DNA of 64,000 nucleotides from Candidatus Zixiibacteriota bacterium (lineage in GTDB: Bacteria > Zixibacteria > MSB-5A5 > GN15 > JAAZOE01): the NCBI GenBank assembly GCA_036480375.1, contig JAZGGI010000028.1, forward strand, positions 186,001-250,000. Direction: 5' to 3'. Positions within the stretch are counted from its first letter, which is position 1. Every line of letters starts with the position of its first letter. The translations under genes were made by a program, and so were the position numbers. The notes below the pieces were generated by a model. That model had not been told where the DNA came from and did no database searches. It saw only the letters and a program-made list of their open reading frames with translations. Shown here in pieces: positions 36,729 through 55,995 of this stretch.

Positions 36729-39662
36729 ATGGACAATACCTCACAACATACGGCAAGACTAAGCCCAAGGCTGTTGGAAATAGAAGGTCTATTCAAGCAG
36801 CGGAAAATCAGGCAGGGATTGTCGGCGTTGGATAAGCTGGATCAGGTTGAGTATTCGCCTGAGGGCTTAGATTTGGGGCTATATTCTTTGCTATTGGCCG
36901 AGCGAGGTTATTATGACAATGATTATAAGATGATGCTTGATAATTGTCGCGTGGCTTTGGATGAGTTAGGTACAACCAGTCTCAATTACCGGATTGGCAG
37001 ACTTCAGTATTTGGTTTATCTGGCTTATTCATCTCTTGGTGATTTGAAAGCCGCTGAGCAAGCGGCGCGCGATTCGTTGGCATCGTATCGCCGGGTAAAA
37101 GACGACGCCGGTATTATTGACGCCTATAATGCTCTGGGCAAAATATATTTTATCCGATCTGATTATGGCACTGCCGCAGAATATGTCAACGAAGCCATCC
37201 AATACTCGGCGCAAGATTCTAAGAAAACGGTTCAGTTGTTGGGAAACCTCGGTCGAATTTATCTTTTAACGGGCGATTTGGATAAGGCTCAGGAAAATCT
37301 TGAAAAAGCCCTGAATTTGGGCAAAGAATTGGAACTGGCTTCTTCAATCGTCCTAAATCAGCTTTCTCTTGGTTATCTGTATATTCGGCGGCGGCATTTT
37401 TATCAGGCCGGAATTGAGTTGACCGCCGCGGATAATTTAATTCGCGAGTTTGGTTTTAAGCGAGAGAGAGTGATATCTCTCGAGTACCAGGGCGAGTTAT
37501 GTTACGAGAAGCAGGATTTTGTGGCGGCCAAGAATCATTTGGAAGAAGCGATTTCGTTGGCCAATGAACTGGCTCCTCAATCTACGCTTATGAGTCAATG
37601 TTTGCGACGCTTTGCGGAAACTGAATTGGAACTGGGGCATGATGATGTGGCGATGCGTCATGTACAAAAGGCGTTAAACCTGGCGAAAGAAATAGGCGAG
37701 AAATCAGAGATTGGTATGTCGCATCGGGTAATATCGGCCATATTTTTATCACGCGGAGAAAGCGCGGACGCCCGGCGTCATGGTTCGATGAGTATCGATA
37801 TTTTACGCGAGATCGGAGATAGTTTTGAATTAGGTCGTTCAATAATTCAATACGGCGCTATTCCACCGGCTGGAGTAAGTATCAGCGACCGCAAGGCTAT
37901 TCCGTTATTACGTGAAGCGGAAAAGATATTCACGGTTCTCGGCGATGATTATTATGTATCTCGGTGTCGCTTTGAGCTGGGCAGATTATGCTATCATTTG
38001 GGGAAAAATGGCGAGGCGCTTGAATACCTAAAATTATCTTATGAGGGGTTCCGCAGTATCGGCGATAAGGCCGGGGCAAAAACTGTAAGCGATTTTCTGG
38101 ATTCGTTGTCTCGGAACGCCGTTATAAGGGCGCTTTCAAACAAGAATGAATTTAAATTATTTAGCAATCTTGTTTCCGGCTCAGAAATTGAGAATATAAA
38201 AAGCGGCCGGTTAGAAAATCTGCTTGAAATTCTATGTCGGAAAATTCAAGCCGACCGCGGATTGATTATTGATTTATCTGAAAACGGCCATCCCGAGATA
38301 AACGCCTTATACGGATTCGAGGAACCGGACTTCGAAACGGCGATATCCGGATTTTCAGAACTTATAGAAGAAGGAATCATTTCTGATAGGCCAATATTGG
38401 TATTGGATGGCTCAAATGGAGCCGAGTTTATGGATTTGGTTCCGACGCCGGAAAATGATATAGCCTGTTTGATAGTTTTACCCCTGACTCTTGCCACAGA
38501 AGTAATTGGATATATTTATCTTGACCGCATAAGCCAATCGCCTGGAAAAGGGATAAATCCGTTTAGTCAAAATGATATTGATTTTTCGGTAGGGTTTGCC
38601 GATTTAGTCGCGTTTAAGACGGCAGATTTGCAGAAGGAAAAACTATTGGAAGATAATTTGCGATTGAAGGCTCAGTTATTGGAAACCTGTGCTTTCCCTA
38701 ATATTATCACCCAATCGCGGGCGTTTATGGAGATATTGGCGCGCGTTCGTCAAGTGGCAAATTCCAATATGGCCATTTCCATTACGGGCGCGACCGGAAC
38801 GGGTAAGGATTTATTGGCCAAGGCCATTCATTATAATTCAGCTCGACGCGATAAGAGATTTATTTCCGTTAATTGCGCGGCGTTACCGGAATCTCTTTTG
38901 GAGTCAGAGTTGTTCGGCTACAAGAGGGGAGCTTTCACCGGGGCTGATCGTGATAAACCCGGTTTATTCGAAGAGGCTGACGGCGGGACTTTTTTCCTTG
39001 ATGAAATTGCCGATATGCCTTTATCGCTTCAAGCCAAGGTGCTGCGCCTTTTGGAGAATATGGAAATTACTCGTCTGGGAGATACACATCCACGGAAGGT
39101 GGATGTACGTGTGATTTCGGCGACGAATAAGGATTTGAAAAAGGAAATGGAGCAAAAACGTTTCCGAAGCGATTTGTATTATCGTTTATGCGCTTTGCAT
39201 TTCTCTATTCCGCCTTTGCGGGAACGTAAAGAGGATATTCCACTATTGGTAGAGCATTTCCTTGACGGTAGTAATTGCCAGGTTATGCCGGATGCGATGA
39301 AATATTTAATTGATTATGATTGGCCGGGGAATATTCGGGAACTTGAAAATGAAATCAAGAAAACGGTATTGTTGGCTAACAATGAAGGACCAATAACCTC
39401 CGCTCTGTTATCGCGGAGAATTCTTGGTGAGGATCAGAATAATGTGATGAGAATTCCTAACGAGGAAGCGTATTTTACCGAGGGCAGCTTTTCTCTTTAT
39501 GACTATATCGCTGAATTTGAGAAGCGATTTATTGTTAAGGCTTTAAAAGAACAGCGTGGGGTCAAAAAGCGGGCGGCTGACTCTCTGAAAATACCGGAGT
39601 CAACCCTGCGCTTAAAGCTGAAACAATACGATATCGACCCGAAAAGGCTTGATATAAATTGA
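36729..39662 (+). CDS. TPR-GAF-sigma54 transcriptional activator
   Basis: The 977-residue protein has about ten TPR-like repeats (residues 30-450; for example LGKIYFIRSDYGTAAEYVNEAI, LGNLGRIYLLTGDLDKAQENL), a GAF-like domain (about 470-640) and an AAA+ sigma54-interaction domain. Walker A GATGTGKD starts near 687, GYKRGAFTGA spans about 730-739, FLDEIAD is near 755, and a Fis-type HTH closes the protein (about 945-970, KKRAADSLKIPESTLRLKL). The GAFTGA loop shows true sigma54 contact. No receiver domain is present, so TPR and GAF are the sensors. A SARP-like or peptide-sensing role is inference. A terminator follows. Confidence 0.92.
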   Translation: MDNTSQHTARLSPRLLEIEGLFKQRKIRQGLSALDKLDQVEYSPEGLDLGLYSLLLAERGYYDNDYKMMLDNCRVALDELGTTSLNYRIGRLQYLVYLAYSSLGDLKAAEQAARDSLASYRRVKDDAGIIDAYNALGKIYFIRSDYGTAAEYVNEAIQYSAQDSKKTVQLLGNLGRIYLLTGDLDKAQENLEKALNLGKELELASSIVLNQLSLGYLYIRRRHFYQAGIELTAADNLIREFGFKRERVISLEYQGELCYEKQDFVAAKNHLEEAISLANELAPQSTLMSQCLRRFAETELELGHDDVAMRHVQKALNLAKEIGEKSEIGMSHRVISAIFLSRGESADARRHGSMSIDILREIGDSFELGRSIIQYGAIPPAGVSISDRKAIPLLREAEKIFTVLGDDYYVSRCRFELGRLCYHLGKNGEALEYLKLSYEGFRSIGDKAGAKTVSDFLDSLSRNAVIRALSNKNEFKLFSNLVSGSEIENIKSGRLENLLEILCRKIQADRGLIIDLSENGHPEINALYGFEEPDFETAISGFSELIEEGIISDRPILVLDGSNGAEFMDLVPTPENDIACLIVLPLTLATEVIGYIYLDRISQSPGKGINPFSQNDIDFSVGFADLVAFKTADLQKEKLLEDNLRLKAQLLETCAFPNIITQSRAFMEILARVRQVANSNMAISITGATGTGKDLLAKAIHYNSARRDKRFISVNCAALPESLLESELFGYKRGAFTGADRDKPGLFEEADGGTFFLDEIADMPLSLQAKVLRLLENMEITRLGDTHPRKVDVRVISATNKDLKKEMEQKRFRSDLYYRLCALHFSIPPLRERKEDIPLLVEHFLDGSNCQVMPDAMKYLIDYDWPGNIRELENEIKKTVLLANNEGPITSALLSRRILGEDQNNVMRIPNEEAYFTEGSFSLYDYIAEFEKRFIVKALKEQRGVKKRAADSLKIPESTLRLKLKQYDIDPKRLDIN

Positions 39663-39723: not shown

Positions 39724-39768
39724 GAATATATACGCGTAATAAAACCTGTGGATGGCCAGGAGGAATCT

Positions 39769-42600
39769 GTGAGGAATTTATATTGGGTATTATTGATACT
39801 GATTTTTGCGTTTTCGTTATCTCATGGAAACGATTTATATAGAATTAGATTGTCAGAACATGCAGATGCCGAATACTTGAATTCATCGGAAACTTTACCA
39901 ATTGCCGTACTGTCCCAGGGCTATTTAATTATCGCTGATAAATCGCAGGCGGCTTTAATAGAATCTCAGGGTATAGAAATATTTTTAATTGAAAGTGATG
40001 TTGTAATCGACAAGCTGGTTTTTGACATGCGGCATGATGAACAGAGCGAAGGCTTAGATGATGTAGTGTTTGAGGAAGAGGGGATTCGGATATTACGTCT
40101 GGATTTGAGCGAGAAATCGCTACCGGGTAATGAGTTTGATTTTATGCCGGTGTTTCAAATACATGCTAATTTTCAATATTTTGAAGTGGTAGACTTAAAT
40201 ATCGATAAATTATTGTTACCTCCGGGATTGGACGATTTGATTGATTCGGTAAGTAGGTCCAATCTTTTCTCAAATACAAGAAATCTTCAAAACCTGGGAG
40301 ACAGGGTAGCAGGTTCGGCCGTTGGTGAAGAAGCCCAGAATTGGATTTATAATAGACTAAGTTCTTTTGGGTATGATTCGTTATATCTGGATGAATTTAC
40401 GGTTTATATCCAGGGAGCAAATAGAGATTGTCGGAATGTAATAGCGGTTAAACCGGGGCTGGTAACTCCGGAGGCGAAAATTGTAATCGGGGCGCATTTC
40501 GATGCCGTTCCCGGTTCGCCGGGAGCCGATGATAATGGTTCGGGAACGTCAGCGGTCATAGAGCTGGCAAGAGTATTCAAGAATATCGAGACGAATCTAA
40601 CGTTTGTTTTTGCTCTTTTTGATGCCGAGGAATATGGATTACATGGCTCCCGTCATTACGCGAATAATGCTTATTCCAATGGCGAAACAATTATATTTAT
40701 GATTAATCTGGATATGGTTGGCGCCGAGGATAATGATGAAGACATGGTTAGAATTTATCATGGGGATGATTTAAAATATATCAATATTCTCCAGCAATTA
40801 GCGGATTCATTATTGAATTTTGACGCTTCCAAGGCGGGTACTTCATCTCGCTCCGATCATTATAGTTTTCAATCTTTGGGTTATGACGTTTCGTTTTTTC
40901 AAGAATGGGTATTTTCAGATGTATATCATACTTCAGGTGATAATACCAACCGTATGGATTTTGGTTATATGACGGATGTAGTAAAGATAGCAATGGCGAC
41001 GGCCTATTCGGTAGATTGGTTGGCGTCACCGAATCGTTCGGTGTCGGTAACATATCCTAACGGTTTGCCATTGTCTTTTGCGGCGGATGAATTATCATCG
41101 TTTGAGGTTCGTGTTGAAGGGATTCACGGCGGTTCGGTTGTGCCGGGAACAGCCGAATTTAATTGCTCGATCGATGGCGGAGATTACGTTACGGTTCCGT
41201 TGACTGAGAAGAGCGCAGGTCTTTATGAAGTTGAGATGGAGGGTTATCCGGCGGGAACTCCAATATCCTATTATGTCAACGCACAGGAAGCGTCGACGGG
41301 TTTGATTTCAGGCGAAGTAGAGTCGAAGGCTAACGCAGGATCATACTTATATTTTGAGTCATTAGTATTTGAGGATGATTTTTCATTGGACGAGGGTTGG
41401 ACGGTCGAGGGTGATGCGGTTGTCGGTCAATGGGAACGCGGGATACCTTCGGGAGATGGTATTAATGGCGACCCCGTGGAAGATTTCGACGGTAACGGCT
41501 GGTGTTATTTGACGGGTAATTCATCAGGGGATTCTAATGTAGATGGCGGTAAGACTTCACTTATTTCACCTGTATTTGATTTATCGGGCGGTTATGGCGA
41601 GGTTCGTTATTCGGTGTGGTTTAGCAATAGCCTCGATCGCGAGGATTTATTTCATGTATACGTGAGCGGAGATGAAGGTCAAACATGGGTCAAGACAGGA
41701 ACTCTGGGTCCTTTTTCGGATGACGCTGCCGGAGGTTGGCAGAGTCGTTCGTTTATCGTCAATAAGTATATTGATTTCAGTTCGACCGTGCGGGTGAAAT
41801 TTGAAGTATCTGATTACGGCAAAGAATCAATGGTAGAGGCGGGATTGGATGGAATTAAGGTATTGCTTCACAGTTCTGAGTCGTTTGAGATTCCGGAACA
41901 GACATTTTTGGAGTGGACGAAGAAGCAGCCTTTTTCGGCGATCTTAAAGGCAACCGGGGGAGTTGGCGTTCGGAGGTGGAGTGAAATTAATGGCAGTTTT
42001 AGTCTGGTTGGTTTGACGTTAAACCCGGATGGAACGGTAGAAGGTTCTCCGACGAGGACCGGTCAGTTGAGTTTGTTGGCTGAGGCTTACGACGAGGTGC
42101 TTAATACGGCTCAGCGGACATTGTCGTTCATGGTCAATGAGCCGGTGGCGTTGCATACGTTCAGTTTGCCAGGTGGTATGATTCGTGAGAGTTATTCTCA
42201 GCAATTGGATGCTGATGGCGGTACGGGTGAGTTAATATGGATTGATAAGTATGGAGATTTGGAGGAGACGGGATTGAGTTTATCATCGACAGGATTGGTC
42301 TCGGGGGTGGTAGAGGATCCCAGGTTGATTGGTTTCACGGTTTACATATCGGATATAACAGGTAGTGATCAGGAATGGACGTATGAGATGAATTTTGAAT
42401 ATATCGATGGTGACGCCAACGGAGATAATACGGTAAATGTGGGGGATGCGGTATTTATCATCAATCATGTTTTCAAGCAGGGTCCGTCTCCTTATCCTTA
42501 CCTTGCGGCGGATACGAATTGTGATGGAGATGTAAACGTCGGTGACGCTGTTTATTTGGTGAATCATATCTTCAAGGGTTGGCCGGCACCGGGTTGTTGA
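39769..42600 (+). CDS. Secreted M28 peptidase with dockerin, copy 1
   Basis: The GTG at 39769 has CCAGGAGGA just upstream, which decides it over 39748. The 943-residue protein has a signal peptide, a prodomain-like region, and an M28 catalytic domain with GAHFDAVPGSPGADDNGSGT (H243 first zinc ligand, Asp of ADDN bridging), FDAEEYG, INLDMVG and VYHTSGDN. A Fn3-like domain, a jellyroll region (WYxxSPVFDLSGGYGEV type), an Ig-like domain and two dockerin EF repeats (GDANGDNTVNVGDAVF and TNCDGDVNVGDAVY) follow. It should act outside the cell as an aminopeptidase-like enzyme attached by dockerin. First of four tandem copies. Confidence 0.9.
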   Translation: MRNLYWVLLILIFAFSLSHGNDLYRIRLSEHADAEYLNSSETLPIAVLSQGYLIIADKSQAALIESQGIEIFLIESDVVIDKLVFDMRHDEQSEGLDDVVFEEEGIRILRLDLSEKSLPGNEFDFMPVFQIHANFQYFEVVDLNIDKLLLPPGLDDLIDSVSRSNLFSNTRNLQNLGDRVAGSAVGEEAQNWIYNRLSSFGYDSLYLDEFTVYIQGANRDCRNVIAVKPGLVTPEAKIVIGAHFDAVPGSPGADDNGSGTSAVIELARVFKNIETNLTFVFALFDAEEYGLHGSRHYANNAYSNGETIIFMINLDMVGAEDNDEDMVRIYHGDDLKYINILQQLADSLLNFDASKAGTSSRSDHYSFQSLGYDVSFFQEWVFSDVYHTSGDNTNRMDFGYMTDVVKIAMATAYSVDWLASPNRSVSVTYPNGLPLSFAADELSSFEVRVEGIHGGSVVPGTAEFNCSIDGGDYVTVPLTEKSAGLYEVEMEGYPAGTPISYYVNAQEASTGLISGEVESKANAGSYLYFESLVFEDDFSLDEGWTVEGDAVVGQWERGIPSGDGINGDPVEDFDGNGWCYLTGNSSGDSNVDGGKTSLISPVFDLSGGYGEVRYSVWFSNSLDREDLFHVYVSGDEGQTWVKTGTLGPFSDDAAGGWQSRSFIVNKYIDFSSTVRVKFEVSDYGKESMVEAGLDGIKVLLHSSESFEIPEQTFLEWTKKQPFSAILKATGGVGVRRWSEINGSFSLVGLTLNPDGTVEGSPTRTGQLSLLAEAYDEVLNTAQRTLSFMVNEPVALHTFSLPGGMIRESYSQQLDADGGTGELIWIDKYGDLEETGLSLSSTGLVSGVVEDPRLIGFTVYISDITGSDQEWTYEMNFEYIDGDANGDNTVNVGDAVFIINHVFKQGPSPYPYLAADTNCDGDVNVGDAVYLVNHIFKGWPAPGC

Positions 42601-42634: not shown

Positions 42635-45475
42635 ATGAAGAATACATTACTATTGGTTTTGATAGTACTAATTCTCAGATCATTATCTATTAGCGCTGAT
42701 TTATATAGGATTAAATTATCGAGTCATGCCGACGCGGAGTATTTGAATTCGACAGGTGTAGAGCCGGTGGCGATGCTGTTTCGTGGATATTTAGTAATGG
42801 CGGATAAATCTCAAGCGTATGAGATGGAATCCCGCGGGATTGAGTTAAGGTTAATAGAAGCGGGCGTAGACAAATCGTTCCTTGGTATTGATATGCGTCG
42901 CGATCGTAAGAATGTAGACAGGTTTGATTTGATATATGAAGAGGGGGCATTTCGTTTATTTCGCCTTGAACCAATGGAGAAGTCCAGGATACTGACTGGT
43001 ACTGAGATCATGCCGGTAGCAGATAGGAATATTATCTTTACTTATGTTGAGAGTGTTGAGTATGACGAAAGTTCGTATGTGCTGCCTGGCGGATTGGAAG
43101 AATTGATAGGGCAAATAAGCATAGATTCTCTAGTTGCTTTTTCCGAACATCTGGAATCTTATATGGGACGCGTTACGGGTACCATTGTCAATTTCCAGGT
43201 TCAGGAATGGCTTTCAAACAAATTTATAGAGATGGGTTATACGGATGTATATTACGACCGGTTTACATTTAATTTTGATGGCTCAACGAAGAATTGCCGC
43301 AATGTTATTGCGGTCAAGGAAGGGACAAAGTATCCGGATCATCAAATAATCATTGGGGCTCATTATGATACATATAGCGGATGGGTTTTTGATACGGGAG
43401 TTTCTCCCGGGGCAGATGATAATGGTTCAGGAATGGCCGCTGTTTTGGAAATTGCAAGAGTTCTAAAAGATATTGAAACAGATGTGACTATCCTCTTTAT
43501 TTTATTTGATGGCGAGGAATTTCTTTGTAAGGGATCTGGCCATTACGCAAATGAGGCTTATGCACGAGGTGATGATATTATCTTTATGTTGAATTTGGAT
43601 ATGATAGGAGCCCGGCGTAATGGAAGCTCGGTCTATATTAACCATGGCAATGATATGAAATACGCCTATTTATGCGAGTTACTGGGAGATACATTACTAA
43701 ATATTAATGGACATTTTATTACTGAATACGCCTCGGATCAAAGAAAATTCTGGGAAGTTGGCTACAATGCTCTCATGATTCATGAGTATGAATTTTCTGA
43801 AGTTTGGCATACTGTTGATGACCTTGTGCAATTCTTAACGTATGACTATATGACATCTATGACCAAATTGGCATTGGCGACCGTTTATTCAATTGATAAT
43901 ATTGCCTCACCCAATCCCTCGCTTCTGATAAGTTACCCGTTGGGATTGCCTTCTTCATTGCCTGCGGGCGAAACATCGTTTTTAGAGGTTCAATTGGAGG
44001 GTTTGTATGGCGGTGAGGTTATGCCGGGGACTATCAACTGGCATTATTCAATTTCCGGTGAGAATTACGTTACGGTACCGATGACAGAGAAGAGTTCAGG
44101 AATTTATGAAGTCGAAATTCCAGGAATGCTATCCGGTACACAAATATCCTATTATGCCGATGCTGAAGAGATCAACACAGGTGTTGTTTCAGGGGGAAAT
44201 ATAGCATCGGCTGACAATGCATATTATTTATATCCTGAACAATCTTTGTTTGAGGACGGTTTTGCCCAGGATTTTGGCTGGCAGGTAGAGGGTAATGCTT
44301 CTGAGGGGATCTGGGAGCGTGGCATACCTGAAGGCGACGGATTAAATGGTGATCCATTGGAAGATTTTGACGGCGATGGTTGGTGTTATTTAACCGGTAA
44401 TAATATCGGAAATTCTGAGAGAGTAAATGGAGTGACATCTCTAATTTCTCCTATGTTTGATTTATCGGATAAATATGGCGAGGTCAGATACGCGATATGG
44501 TTTGAAAACGGACCTTATCGGGAAGATATAATGTCTGTCTATTTGAGTGGAAATGGGGGGATTGATTGGATAAAGGTTGATTCTATCGGCCCGGTTTCAG
44601 GGTGCGGGGGGAGTTGGCAAACTCGATCGTTCCTGATGAATTTCCATATCGGCAATAGTTCACAAGTCCGAGTGAAATTTGTTGTCTCCGACTATAATCA
44701 ATCAGGCATTGAAGCCGGTTTGGATGCATTCAGAGTTTTGCTACATAGTTCAGATCCATTAGAAATACCCGATCAAGCTTTTTCGGAATGGACGAAAGGG
44801 GAGCCATATACAGCGCAGGTGTATGCCATTGGGGGGTTAGGTGATATTGCATTTAACGATATAGACGACAGTTTTAGTTTGGCCGGATTGGTATTGCATA
44901 GTGACGGATTGATTGAGGGGCAACTGACAAAAAGCGGTCAATTGAATTTGTTGGTTGAAGCCCTCAATGAAGTTGGTAATAGCGCAATGGGTATGATATC
45001 CTTTTTGGTCAATGAGCCGGTGGCGTTGCATACGTTCAGTCTTCCGGGAGGGATGATTCGTGAGAGTTATTCTCAGCAGTTGAATGCTGATGGCGGTACG
45101 GGTGAGTTGATATGGATTGATAAGTATGGAGATTTGGAGGGGACGGGATTGAGTTTATCGTCGACGGGATTGGTCTCGGGGGTGGTTGAGGATCCCAGGT
45201 TGATTGGTTTCACGGTTTACATATCGGATATAACAGGTAGTGATCAGGAATGGACGTATGAGATGAATTTTGAATATATCGATGGTGACGCTAATGGTGA
45301 TAATGTAGTCAATGTTGGTGATGCGGTATTTATTATCAATCATGTTTTCAAGCATGGTCCGTCTCCTTATCCTTACCTTGCGGCCGATACTAATTGTGAT
45401 GGTGATGTAAACATCGGTGATGCGGTTTATTTAGTGAATCATATCTTCAAGGATTGGCCGGCACCGGGCTGTTAA
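42635..45475 (+). CDS. Secreted M28 peptidase with dockerin, copy 2
   Basis: The 946-residue paralogue has the same architecture. Its catalytic core reads GAHYDTYSG with GADDNGSGM, FDGEEF, LNLDMIGA and EVWHTVDD, so the zinc ligands are kept. The motif after them, SDHYSF in copy 1, is SDQRKF here. The C-terminal 155 residues (Ig module plus dockerin) are nearly identical to copy 1 at the DNA level, while the catalytic half is much more diverged. It starts 34 bases after copy 1 and is probably co-transcribed. Confidence 0.88.
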   Translation: MKNTLLLVLIVLILRSLSISADLYRIKLSSHADAEYLNSTGVEPVAMLFRGYLVMADKSQAYEMESRGIELRLIEAGVDKSFLGIDMRRDRKNVDRFDLIYEEGAFRLFRLEPMEKSRILTGTEIMPVADRNIIFTYVESVEYDESSYVLPGGLEELIGQISIDSLVAFSEHLESYMGRVTGTIVNFQVQEWLSNKFIEMGYTDVYYDRFTFNFDGSTKNCRNVIAVKEGTKYPDHQIIIGAHYDTYSGWVFDTGVSPGADDNGSGMAAVLEIARVLKDIETDVTILFILFDGEEFLCKGSGHYANEAYARGDDIIFMLNLDMIGARRNGSSVYINHGNDMKYAYLCELLGDTLLNINGHFITEYASDQRKFWEVGYNALMIHEYEFSEVWHTVDDLVQFLTYDYMTSMTKLALATVYSIDNIASPNPSLLISYPLGLPSSLPAGETSFLEVQLEGLYGGEVMPGTINWHYSISGENYVTVPMTEKSSGIYEVEIPGMLSGTQISYYADAEEINTGVVSGGNIASADNAYYLYPEQSLFEDGFAQDFGWQVEGNASEGIWERGIPEGDGLNGDPLEDFDGDGWCYLTGNNIGNSERVNGVTSLISPMFDLSDKYGEVRYAIWFENGPYREDIMSVYLSGNGGIDWIKVDSIGPVSGCGGSWQTRSFLMNFHIGNSSQVRVKFVVSDYNQSGIEAGLDAFRVLLHSSDPLEIPDQAFSEWTKGEPYTAQVYAIGGLGDIAFNDIDDSFSLAGLVLHSDGLIEGQLTKSGQLNLLVEALNEVGNSAMGMISFLVNEPVALHTFSLPGGMIRESYSQQLNADGGTGELIWIDKYGDLEGTGLSLSSTGLVSGVVEDPRLIGFTVYISDITGSDQEWTYEMNFEYIDGDANGDNVVNVGDAVFIINHVFKHGPSPYPYLAADTNCDGDVNIGDAVYLVNHIFKDWPAPGC

Positions 45476-48332: not shown

Positions 48333-48366
48333 ATAAAATAAATAGGTGCATGAAAGAAGGTGTGGT

Positions 48367-51222
48367 ATGAAGAACAGGGTGCTTCTGTTATTGATACTAC
48401 TGTTTCTTAATTCTTTATCATTTAGTGATGATTTGTATCGGATAAGATTAACCAGTTCACAGAGCGCTGCATATTTGAATTCATCGGGGATTGAAGCAAT
48501 AGCAATGCTTCTTCGCGGTTATTTGATATTGGCGGATGGGAATCAGGCGGAAGCGATGGTGTCGCATGGAATAGAATTGGAGTTAATCGAGTCAGGCGTG
48601 TTTAAGAGTCAACTTGGCATTGACCTTCGTCGCGATCGCAAGAATGTTGAAAGGTATGAGTTGCTTTATGAGGAGGGGGAGTTTCGATTATATCGGATTG
48701 CTTCTGATGCGAAGTTGGAAATATTACTTGGTGATGAGGTGATGCCCGTACGGGGAGATAATATAGTATTTTCATATATCGAGAATATTGAATACGATAC
48801 TGATTCTTATGTCCTGCCGGTCGGATTGGACGAGTTAATTGGACAGATAGATGAGGCCGCATTATTTTCAAATACAAGTAGGCTGGAAAGTTTTAGTAAC
48901 CGATTTGCAGGCTCATTGGCAATGGATACTGTTCAGGAATGGTTAATGGATAAATTTTATTCATTTGGATACGATTCAGTTTATTTAGATCCTTTTGAAT
49001 GCATTCACGCTGGTTACGGGAATACTTTGTATTGTAACAATGTTATCGCAGTTAAGCCTGGTATAAAACATCCAAATTGTCATATTATTGTTGGCGCCCA
49101 TTTTGACGCCGCTGACTTATGGTATACTGGTGGTGAAGGTTCTCCGGGTGCGGATGATAATGGATCGGGGACGTCTGCGGTTTTGGAGATTGCCAAAGTA
49201 TTAAGGGATGTGGAAACAAATATCACTTTTGTCTTTATCTTATTTGATGGCGAGGAATTTGGGATGAGTGGTTCCTACCATTATGCCAACGAGGCATATG
49301 CCAGAGGTGATACGATTGTGTATATGCTTAATATAGATATGATTGCGGCCGTAGGCAATGAGAGTGAGGCAAATCTCTATCACGGCGATGATATGAAATT
49401 TGCAGAATTGTGTAAGTACCTGGCCGATACCCTATTTAACTTTAACGCCTATTTGCTGGGTCCTTACTTTTCAGATCAGAGGCCCTTCAGGGAGCTTGGT
49501 TATACTGTTACATTTCTGCGGGAGTACTATTTATCAGATTACATTCATACACCAGAAGATTTAACGATTCATATGGATTTTGACTACATGACCAAGATGA
49601 CAAAGATAGCATTGGCGACGGCATATTCGGCTGATTTTTTAGTTATTCCGATTCGTTCGATATCGGTGACCTATCCTGAGGGTTTGCCATTGTCGTTTCC
49701 GGCCAATGAGTTATCATCTTTTGTAGTTCAGGTTGAAGGTATTCATGGTGGCTCAGTTGTGGCAGGGACAGTCGAATTGCATTGGTCGATTGATGGCGGG
49801 GATTACGTTACGATTCCATTGACTGAGAAAAGCGCCGGTCTTTATGGGGTTGAGATGGATGGTTATCCAGCGGGGACCCGGATTTCATATTATGTGACAG
49901 CCCAGGAGTCAGCGACGGGTCTCATAAGTGGCGAAACGGAGCCAAGTGCGAACGCGGGATCATATTTGTATTTTGAATCATTATTATTTTCAGATGATTT
50001 TTCGTCAGATCAAGGGTGGATAGTCGAGGGTAATGCTACGGCCGGTGATTGGGAGCGTGGGATACCTGTGGGAGATGGCAGCTATGGTGATCCGATTGAG
50101 GATTTTGACGGGAATGGTTGGTGTTATATAACGGGGAATGCTATTGGTGATTCGGATGTAGATAATGGTGCCACATCCTTGATATCACCTTCGTTTGATA
50201 TGTCAAGTTATTATAGCGAGGTAAGATATGCGGTTTGGTATAGTAATAGTATAATCCGTGATGATTTATTTGATGTATATGTGAGCGGTGATGACGGGCA
50301 GACATGGATTCAGGTTGATACTCTGGGTCCTTTTCCCTATGACGCAGCCGGAGGTTGGCAAAGTCGTTCGTTTATAGTTAATGAATTTATGGATTTCAGT
50401 TCGACCGTGCGGGTGAAGTTTGAGGCCACTGATTATGGCATGGAGTCGACGGTTGAAGCGGGATTGGATGGATTTAAGGTATTGCTTCATAGTTCTGAAC
50501 CGTTTGAGATACCGGATCAAACACTACCTGAATGGACGAAGAACCGGCCTTTTTCTGCCCGACTATACGCTACCGGGGGTTTGGGTAACCGGATATGGGT
50601 TGAGCGTGAAAGTAGTTTTAGTATGGCCGGCTTGACGTTAAATTCGGATGGGACGGTTGAGGGTCAGCCGACGACTACCGGTCAGTTGAGATTATTGGCG
50701 GATGCGATTACCGAGATATTTAATACTGCATCAGGCACAATATATTTTACAGTCAATGAGCCGGTTGCATTGCATACCTTCAGTCTTCCCGGGGGATTGA
50801 TTCGAGAGAGTTATTCACAGCAGTTGAATGCCGATGGTGGTACGGGTGAGTTGACGTGGATAGACAAGTATGGAGATTTAACCGGAACGGGATTAACCTT
50901 ATCTTCGATGGGTTTAGTCTCGGGAGCGGTTGAGGATCCAAGATTGATAAGTTTTACAGTTTATGTATCTGATATTACAGGCAGTTGGCAGGAGCGGACG
51001 TATGAGATGAATTTTGAATATATCGATGGTGATGCCAATGGTGATGATAATGTCAATGTCGGCGATGCCGTATTTTTAATTAACCATGTATTTAAACAGG
51101 GACCGGCTCCATATCCTCTGATATCCGGGGACGCGAATTGTGATGATGACGTTAATGTCGGCGATGCCGTCTATATCATCAACCATGTGTTTAAAGGCGG
51201 TCCCGAACCCGGGTGCGACTGA
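48367..51222 (+). CDS. Secreted M28 peptidase with dockerin, copy 4
   Basis: The ATG at 48367 gives the signal peptide MKNRVLLLLILLFLNSLSFSD; an upstream in-frame ATG adds seven residues. Catalytic motifs are GAHFDAAD with GADDNGSGT, FDGEEFG, LNIDMIAA and YIHTPEDL, with SDQRPF in place of SDHxxF. The Ig module resembles copies 1 and 2, whereas the dockerin is almost identical to copy 3, so the gene is a mosaic. The end is GGPEPGCD. The run of four copies stops here. Confidence 0.88.
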   Translation: MKNRVLLLLILLFLNSLSFSDDLYRIRLTSSQSAAYLNSSGIEAIAMLLRGYLILADGNQAEAMVSHGIELELIESGVFKSQLGIDLRRDRKNVERYELLYEEGEFRLYRIASDAKLEILLGDEVMPVRGDNIVFSYIENIEYDTDSYVLPVGLDELIGQIDEAALFSNTSRLESFSNRFAGSLAMDTVQEWLMDKFYSFGYDSVYLDPFECIHAGYGNTLYCNNVIAVKPGIKHPNCHIIVGAHFDAADLWYTGGEGSPGADDNGSGTSAVLEIAKVLRDVETNITFVFILFDGEEFGMSGSYHYANEAYARGDTIVYMLNIDMIAAVGNESEANLYHGDDMKFAELCKYLADTLFNFNAYLLGPYFSDQRPFRELGYTVTFLREYYLSDYIHTPEDLTIHMDFDYMTKMTKIALATAYSADFLVIPIRSISVTYPEGLPLSFPANELSSFVVQVEGIHGGSVVAGTVELHWSIDGGDYVTIPLTEKSAGLYGVEMDGYPAGTRISYYVTAQESATGLISGETEPSANAGSYLYFESLLFSDDFSSDQGWIVEGNATAGDWERGIPVGDGSYGDPIEDFDGNGWCYITGNAIGDSDVDNGATSLISPSFDMSSYYSEVRYAVWYSNSIIRDDLFDVYVSGDDGQTWIQVDTLGPFPYDAAGGWQSRSFIVNEFMDFSSTVRVKFEATDYGMESTVEAGLDGFKVLLHSSEPFEIPDQTLPEWTKNRPFSARLYATGGLGNRIWVERESSFSMAGLTLNSDGTVEGQPTTTGQLRLLADAITEIFNTASGTIYFTVNEPVALHTFSLPGGLIRESYSQQLNADGGTGELTWIDKYGDLTGTGLTLSSMGLVSGAVEDPRLISFTVYVSDITGSWQERTYEMNFEYIDGDANGDDNVNVGDAVFLINHVFKQGPAPYPLISGDANCDDDVNVGDAVYIINHVFKGGPEPGCD

Positions 51223-54261: not shown

Positions 54262-54684
54262 ATGTTTTCAGCGAAAGCTCATTATGGTCTGAAGGCGGTC
54301 ATTTATTTGGCGAAAATGGCCGGCAAGGGTCCCGTACAGGCCAAGGAAATAGCCAGTTCACAGAATGTTCCGGTCAGGTACCTGGAATTATTATTGTCTC
54401 AGTTGAAAAAGGCCAGAATAATTAATTCGAACCGAGGGAAACTGGGAGGTTACTTTTTGGGGGAGCAGGCTTCCAGTATAAAAGTCTATGATATAATTAT
54501 CGCGTTGGAAGGTCAAATTTCTTTTATCTCGTCTCATGAAATAAAGGAAAACGATCCCATAGAGATGGTAGTTGCCGATTACTGGAATTCGGCTCAAGAT
54601 TTGTTGATCCGGAGTTTGCAGCAGACAGGTATTGAGGAATTGCTGCAAAAGGCCGATTCGGACGAACAGATGTATTACATTTAA
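54262..54684 (+). CDS. Rrf2-family regulator without cysteines (CymR-like)
   Basis: The 140-residue protein has the Rrf2 winged-helix pattern ([59 protein letters not shown]). IscR- and NsrR-type members carry three cysteines for an Fe-S cluster; this one has none. CymR of Bacillus also lacks the cluster and is controlled through O-acetylserine thiol-lyase CysK. Here cysK follows by 13 bases, so a CymR-CysK-like circuit is likely. AGGGGTGG lies upstream of the ATG. Confidence 0.82.
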
Positions 54685-54697
54685 GTGGAGATTGGTT

Positions 54698-55633
54698 ATG
54701 TCGAGAATATTAGATAATGTCATAGATTTAATAGGCAAAACGCCTCTGTTGGCGCTTGATAGAGTAGCAGGCGGATTACCGGCCAGGGTGCTGGGCAAAA
54801 TGGAATCACAAAACCCGGCTTCATCGGTAAAGGATAGAATCGGATATGCCATGATAGATGCCGCCGAGGAAGAAGGGCTGCTTAAAAAAGGTTCCGTAAT
54901 TATAGAGCCCACGTCCGGAAATACCGGCATCGCCCTGGCGTTTGTGTGTGCCGTCAGGGATTACAAGCTAATTCTTACGATGCCTGAAACGATGTCGGTC
55001 GAGAGACGGAATTTGCTCAAGGCATACGGAGCGGAAATAGTCCTGACTCCCGGAGCGGAAGGTATGAGCGGGGCGGTATCAGCCGCCGAGGAGTTAGTAG
55101 ATAAGTATCCCGGCGCGGTGATGTTGCAACAGTTTAATAATCCTTCTAATCCATTGATTCATGAGAAGACTACCGGACCTGAAATATGGGAAGACACCGA
55201 AGGTAAGGTTGATTTAATTGTTACCGGTATAGGTACCGGCGGTACCATCATGGGAGTGACCAGATATATTAGAAAACATAACCCGGACTTCAAGGCTATT
55301 GCTGTGGAACCTGCGGCATCGCCGTTTTTATCGAAGGGTGAAAAGGGACCTCATCCTCTGCAGGGTATCGGAGCCGGTTTCAAGCCTGATATTGTTGATC
55401 TTGATCTGATTGATGAAATAGTGACTATTACCAATGACGAAGCGATTGAAACGACTCGGAATATTGTCAGGCAGGAAGGGATTCTGGCAGGAATATCTTC
55501 GGGGGCCAATGTCGCCGCGGCGATAAAAGTCGCGTCAAGGCCGGAAAATAAGGGCAAGACAATTGTGACTTTGATTTGTGATACCGGGGAAAGATATCTG
55601 TCGACCCCAACGTATACCGATTTTGATTTTTGA
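54698..55633 (+). CDS. cysK: Cysteine synthase (O-acetylserine sulfhydrylase) CysK
   Basis: The 311-residue enzyme has the PLP lysine K45 in [11 protein letters not shown], the phosphate-binding SGNTGIALA loop, [11 protein letters not shown], and [11 protein letters not shown]. It makes cysteine from O-acetylserine and sulfide. The ATG at 54698 gives the normal family start ([20 protein letters not shown]); an upstream frame start at 54632 overlaps the regulator and is rejected. The adjacent Rrf2 gene suggests cysteine-responsive control. Confidence 0.95.
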
Positions 55634-55652
55634 TACAGCCGTTTCAATTTAG

Positions 55653-55682
55653 AATGACTGAAACAATTTAATGTTTCATCAT
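55653..55682. other. Imperfect inverted repeat after cysK
   Basis: TGAAAC (55659-55664) and GTTTCA (55673-55678) pair across eight bases, extended outward by AATGA and TCATT. There is no T run, so a terminator role is weak and a protein-binding site is possible. Confidence 0.35.
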
Positions 55683-55804: not shown

Positions 55805-55820
55805 TGGCACACTTACTGCT
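55805..55820 (+). promoter_or_regulatory. Sigma54-type promoter
   Basis: CTGGCAC-ACTTA-CTGCT has GG at 55806-55807 and GC at 55818-55819 with exactly ten bases between them, matching the -24/-12 consensus. Transcription should begin near 55831. No other full match with correct spacing was noticed in intergenic DNA. A sigma54 activator is encoded at 36.7 kb, but any link is untested. Confidence 0.7.
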
Positions 55821-55830
55821 TAAGTAATAG

Positions 55831-55995
55831 TAATTCAATTCCTCATAGGGGGCCGTGAGGGGAAGAGAATGACAAGAGTTATTGCCCTCTTGAATTGCAA
55901 AAGGGGGATATCATGGAAGGTTTGAGGGGACCTCAAGGATATTAGAATCAAAAGGGGGATCAGCCTGCAGAATAACTGCAGGCTGATTTTTTTTT
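55831..55995 (+). ncRNA. Candidate sigma54-dependent small RNA rich in GGA
   Basis: A transcript from the sigma54 site to the terminator would be about 165 bases and would fold into four stems: CCTCA/TGAGG (55841-55860), CAAGAG/CTCTTG (55873-55892), TTGAGG/CCTCAA with a GGA triloop (55922-55936), and the terminator. GGA or AGGGGGA words occur at about six places, several in single-stranded parts, as in CsrA-titrating RNAs. CAAAAGGGGGAT-type words occur twice (about 55899 and 55950). Tiny frames with ribosome sites exist, so it could be a mini-message instead. Confidence 0.55.
55959..55995 (+). terminator. Intrinsic terminator of the small transcript
   Basis: A perfect twelve-base stem (ATCAGCCTGCAG with its complement) with an AATAA loop is followed by nine T. 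Confidence 0.93.

Follow-up and report, generated by a model that had tools for sequence, protein, structure and literature searches.

We identified an intergenic element that very probably represents a conserved small RNA gene under the control of sigma54 and an activator protein, as judged by comparing sequences among related genomes. The element is located at positions 55805 to 55995 of a 64,000-nt stretch of the genome of a Candidatus Zixiibacteriota bacterium (hereafter, the window), 3′ of cysK and 5′ of a glycosyltransferase gene, and the genes flanking it are on the same strand as the RNA.

Layout and Predicted Fold of the Window Copy

The promoter of the element, on the plus strand at 55805–55820, reads TGGCACACTTACTGCT (TGGCAC-A-CTTA-CTGCT), with TGGCAC as the −24 box and TGCT as the −12 box in GG-N10-GC spacing. 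This is in agreement with a first-pass annotation of the same DNA, which had reported a perfectly spaced −24/−12 promoter at this place. The annotation had overlooked a cluster of activator (enhancer) sites at 55641–55678, to which no strand was assigned; it consists of GTTTCA (55641–55646), TGAAAC (55659–55664), and again GTTTCA (55673–55678), and lies 132 to 164 nt upstream of the −24 box.

Based on the promoter spacing, transcription is predicted to start at ~55830–55832, and the span from promoter to terminator defines a plus-strand small RNA of ~165 nt (55831–55995). A G-rich stretch begins ~12 nt past the promoter and includes five G-runs, each 4 or 5 nt long (55848–55852, 55859–55862, 55903–55907, 55926–55929, and 55954–55958). 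Sequence and fold place the first G5 run in the loop of a 5′ hairpin, CCTCA-TAGGGGGCCG-TGAGG (55841–55860, plus strand). It is followed on the same strand by the hairpin CAAGAG...CTCTTG (55873–55892), which competes with the pairing of GCCCTCTT to AAAGGGGG, and by the third G-run (55903–55907), located within CAAAAGGGGGAT, a 12-nt exact repeat of 55949–55960. The hairpin TTGAGG-GGA-CCTCAA (55922–55936, plus strand) holds the fourth G-run and is the positional counterpart of a G-loop hairpin of the relatives, termed H3. The perfect twelve-base terminator described earlier was confirmed as an intrinsic terminator on the plus strand (55959–55995) with 12-bp arms (55959–55970 and 55976–55987), a 5-nt loop, and a T-tract.

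The stem-loops of the first-pass annotation (CCTCA...TGAGG, CAAGAG...CTCTTG, and the TTGAGG-GGA-CCTCAA triloop) can all be read from the sequence. In the predicted ensemble they are mixed with alternatives that pair the third and fifth G-runs and that are partly preferred. In the predicted fold of the window copy, the first G-run has an unpaired probability of 0.73, and most of three of the five G-runs is paired. The strong fold z-score of this copy (−4.9) is mostly due to the terminator; with the terminator omitted, it is −1.1, and the family mean is −1.6.

Conservation among Relatives of the Same Order

The intergenic region 3′ of cysK was taken from order relatives with a cysK at least 60% identical (20 genomes). 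The same layout was found at the same place in 16 of these, which belong to two families, f1 and f3. The predicted transcripts of the carriers are 125 to 189 nt in length, rich in G-runs, and end in a terminator, and their promoters are positioned 170 to 185 nt 3′ of cysK in all 16. In contrast to this constant layout, the primary sequence of the RNA diverges fast; a BLAST comparison with the nearest relative (G001) recovered the terminator arm only, with 82% identity over 44 nt.

Covariation was evident in the eight f3 copies, in most of which the loop of H3, the penultimate hairpin, displays AGGGG(G)A. Two-sided changes occurred in 15 of the 25 pairs of H3 and the terminator, and the two-sided cells amounted to 32 versus 11.8 in shuffles (reached in 0 of 500) and 2 to 7 when the partners were slid. 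The covariance model of H3 and the terminator (R1) was built from the f3 family; f1 copies score weakly, and the window copy gave a weak match to the H3 model (17 bits, E 0.045). A search of 241 genomes with R1 was not productive; the inspected matches outside f3 were generic terminators that lacked the layout of a −24/−12 element and G-runs. The stems, the terminator, and the −24/−12 element are conserved in relatives, and rpoN is present in the genome; neither of the two genomic findings that the first-pass annotation had named as refuting it was thus obtained. These comparisons support its description of a sigma54-driven, self-terminated, structured noncoding RNA.

Loss or apparent decay of the locus is seen in several genomes. 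One relative (G017, locus L078) retains the Rrf2-family gene, cysK, and the gene downstream, but lacks the promoter, the activator sites, and the RNA together. Three copies (L075, L080, and L081) are shortened, and their H3 stem appears to have been turned into a terminator. One of these, L080, looks like a decaying copy, as its activator words and part of its −12 element are gone.

The element might instead be a leader or a 3′ part of a neighboring gene, or encode a small peptide; its position between same-strand genes and an 18-codon frame that follows GAGGGGAAGAGA in the window copy are compatible with this explanation. We consider it highly improbable because all full-length copies have a promoter and a terminator of their own, and the downstream gene differs between carriers while the RNA persists. 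The coding alternative was rejected, as no reading frame is common to the homologues. The only constant neighbor is the Rrf2-cysK pair, found upstream in every carrier. Among the stretches compared, a glycosyltransferase gene occupies this place in the window genome only, its product having a Pfam score just below the cut-off; G001 has a weakly similar gene (29% identity) further downstream. In the window, the Rrf2-family regulator is located directly upstream of cysK (54262–55633), resembling CymR-CysK pairs. A connection between cysteine status and the RNA locus is conceivable.

The Sigma54 Promoter and Its Putative Activator

Nine GG-N10-GC sites in the window, including the RNA promoter, score at least 9 of 12, and the match alone is therefore unremarkable; its significance comes from conservation, as 16 genomes have it at the same offset. 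The strict −24/−12 form is found in 13 of the 16 carriers versus 0.01 expected from shuffles, and the GG and the G of the −12 element (GG-N10-G) are each kept in all 16. Similarly, the 16 carriers contain 37 TGAAAC/GTTTCA hexamers within 110 nt of cysK, compared to 1.7 ± 1.3 in shuffles. These words occur in 15 of the 16 carriers and in none of the four non-carriers; most copies have two or three of them no more than ~70 nt from the cysK stop, with one in L076 and none in L080.

The window genome encodes the proteins expected for such a promoter, namely a complete three-domain RpoN and enhancer-binding proteins, for which 19 strong PF00158 matches were obtained. In the ~2.0 Mb scanned of the 3.6-Mb genome, the RNA promoter was the only convincing −24/−12 element with at least two activator words 40 to 300 nt upstream. 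This observation suggests that the activator may be nearly dedicated to the RNA. The same ~2.0 Mb of the 3.6-Mb genome contained no convincing paralogues of the RNA.

Two wider searches yielded no further candidates. Matches to the activator-site palindrome TGAAACNNNGTTTCA elsewhere in the same genome were chance-like and had no promoters, and the combined pattern of activator sites, promoter, and AGGGG, when searched in 213 genomes, returned the f1 and f3 carriers plus scattered single matches at about the control frequency. In a genome of a more distant family, f4 (G068, L329:320-506), three GTTTCA words and a real-looking −24/−12 element precede a gene for a secreted fibronectin-type-III protein, and extracellular proteins may therefore be under the control of a similar activator in that family. 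No cysK-linked RNA was seen in G068.

G-Runs, GGA Words, and CsrA

Motifs were counted in 16 RNAs after removal of the terminators, with expectations obtained from dinucleotide shuffles. GGA occurred 65 times (79.4 ± 5.3 expected) and ANGGA 19 times (21.8 ± 4.3 expected), in contrast to AGGGG (40 versus 15.3 ± 3.3), AAGGGG (21 versus 4.9 ± 2.0), and GGGGC (22 versus 9.1 ± 2.6). Restricting the counts to exposed positions across the family gave the same picture, with GGA depleted (27 versus 38.9 ± 5.2) and AGGGG enriched (25 versus 7.4 ± 2.5). Most copies have two to five AGGGG(G) runs. The base after the motif is often C and not A, and for the first G-run it is C in nearly all copies. With AGGGG(G) enriched and GGA at or below chance, the conserved motif under selection appears to be AGGGG(G), not GGA.

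These counts bear on the proposal of the first-pass annotation that the RNA is of the CsrB/RsmZ type. As a sponge of this kind under sigma54 control, its G-rich loops would bind CsrA and titrate it from Shine-Dalgarno sites. Some features favor such a sponge, namely the presence of multiple stem-loops and a dedicated terminator, the GGGGGA with which several loops end, and the GGA triloop of the window copy. Furthermore, some genes have AGGGG within their Shine-Dalgarno window (11 versus ~3 per bin), and the G-runs may therefore mimic Shine-Dalgarno sites. The GGA words that had been pointed out are indeed present, with five before the terminator, but their frequency in the family is no higher than chance; given also the depletion of exposed GGA and the C after the first G-run, the CsrB/RsmZ-like interpretation of the GGA words is not supported. 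Judged by its sequence, the CsrB/RsmZ label fails its own defining test, although the RNA might conceivably titrate CsrA by way of another sequence. The Rfam models of CsrB, RsmY, and RsmZ gave no gathering-level match in the window or the homologues, RsmY reaching 10.8 bits versus a cut-off of 57.

The csrA gene is present in the window genome, as is rpoN. In surveys of CsrA, Hfq, and synteny, which covered relatives only and included several fragmentary genomes, 73 of 79 order genomes had CsrA, among them every one of the 44 of good quality, with or without the RNA; its presence is therefore non-discriminating. The csrA gene of the window genome (G000, C3) lies in a cluster (L244:6129-14246) with the order flgK, csrA, flgL, a FliW-like gene, a gene for a TPR protein, and flagellin, the FliW-like gene being assigned by sequence resemblance. 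Its product is C-terminally extended, with 104 aa. FliW-CsrA control of flagella is known from Bacillus with this gene arrangement, and CsrA appears to be tied to flagellin control in the window genome as well. The neighborhood counts against the CsrA link drawn earlier, since CsrA probably has a protein antagonist already, encoded beside it.

The RNA resembles CsrB, RsmZ, and RsmY in its multiple stem-loops, its G-rich loops, and the presence of CsrA in the genome. It differs in that GGA and ANGGA are unenriched, a FliW-like gene is present, and the predicted control is by sigma54, whereas CsrB, RsmZ, and RsmY are under BarA/GacA-type control. Taken with the motif counts and the CsrA survey, we regard the CsrA sponge as an unlikely explanation.

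A Possible Mode of Action without Hfq

Hfq (PF17209) was found in none of the 79 order genomes, whereas five control genomes gave a match in the same search. Strong G-C seeds would consequently be required of any RNA that acts by pairing in this lineage. In the mechanism that we propose, an enhancer-binding protein on the TGAAAC/GTTTCA sites just 3′ of cysK would allow sigma54 RNA polymerase to transcribe the RNA, and transcription would end at the RNA's own terminator to give a stand-alone regulatory RNA of ~165 nt. This RNA would most likely act in trans and independently of Hfq. Its AGGGG(G) runs, many of which are predicted to be exposed in hairpin loops or linkers, could serve as redundant seeds of high stability for pairing with target RNAs at C-rich stretches, the targets presumably being either mRNAs or an RNA with C-rich loops.

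Such base pairing by the G-runs is quite possibly how the RNA works, and we adopt it tentatively. A sample of 398 genes from the genome showed no enrichment of C-runs around the gene starts, and the adjacent Rrf2-cysK genes contain no conserved C-run; targets may accordingly be few, located elsewhere, or other RNAs. The pairing proposal is weakened by these target searches, by the small number of G4 runs in several members, and by the pairing of runs in the window fold.

Alternatively, the G-runs could be the binding site of a different RNA-binding protein, or they could fold into a G-quadruplex, and the RNA would then work as a protein sponge or scaffold. A short, exposed, repeated motif with fast-changing flanks would fit this explanation, as would the lack of Hfq and the at least three runs of G4 or longer in most full-length members. 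Six members (L068, L071, L074, L075, L080, and L081) have just one or two G4 runs, however, the runs are rather far apart for a quadruplex, and a candidate protein was not found. We regard this as a fair, though rather unlikely, alternative.

An extension of the pairing proposal is that this Hfq-less lineage evolved a mirror-image class of sRNA, whose G-run loops pair with C-rich RNA and possibly soak up sRNAs with C-rich loops, and whose activator controls little else. This scenario is conceivable and, in our view, somewhat doubtful.

Comparison with Known Small RNAs

CrcZ and CrcY of Pseudomonas are sigma54-dependent sRNAs under a dedicated activator, and Qrr and Crc-type RNAs work with Hfq. 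The Qrr RNAs of Vibrio are likewise sigma54-dependent under a dedicated activator (PMC10162802), and Dv_sRNA2 and three further noncoding RNAs of Desulfovibrio vulgaris are driven by sigma54 (PMC3333781, PMC4641369). The RNA described here shares with Qrr, CrcZ/CrcY, and Dv_sRNA2 a −24/−12 promoter, upstream activator repeats, its own terminator, and the nature of an intergenic stand-alone RNA. As sigma54-dependent sRNAs under dedicated activators are already known, its regulatory layout is of a known kind. In contrast to these RNAs, it has a different activator word and a G-run motif, it belongs to an Hfq-less lineage, and it lacks an Rfam match.

A second group for comparison comprises sX13 of Xanthomonas and other Hfq-independent sRNAs, in which loops of four or five C pair with G-rich motifs (PMC3771888); similar C-rich loops are found in GsrN of Caulobacter (PMC5869019) and in mycobacterial B11 (PMC10470900). 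Like sX13, the present RNA has several stable stem-loops, exposes a repeated homopolymeric motif of 4 to 5 nt in them, and would not need Hfq. It is not a C-rich-loop RNA itself, however, as its loops bear G4-5 where those of sX13, GsrN, and B11 bear C4-5. Due to this exchange, its target would be C-rich rather than a Shine-Dalgarno region.

Rfam gave no gathering-level match for the window or for any of the 16 homologues, and literature searches retrieved no description of an sRNA from this uncultured lineage. As far as these database and literature searches show, the RNA family, its G-run loops, and its Hfq-less setting are new. The family adds to the sRNAs outside Rfam one with a full regulatory anatomy, consisting of activator sites, a sigma54 promoter, G-run loops, and a terminator. 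It also offers a defined locus for asking how sRNAs operate without Hfq and whether G-run loops are a functional counterpart of the widespread sRNAs with C-rich loops.

Other Genes in the Window

Apart from the RNA locus, the window includes at least three paralogous genes of ~950 codons between 39748 and 51222 that resemble secreted M28-type peptidases. Each of the encoded proteins ends in two dockerin-like repeats (GDANGD..NVGDAV), and the paralogues are probably a tandem expansion. Just upstream of these large peptidase-dockerin genes (39748–42600, 42635–45475, and 48346–51222) is a gene for a 977-aa protein (36729–39662) with TPR-like repeats, a GAF-like part, a sigma54 activator domain, and a C-terminal HTH, which is a candidate regulator of the peptidase-dockerin cluster.
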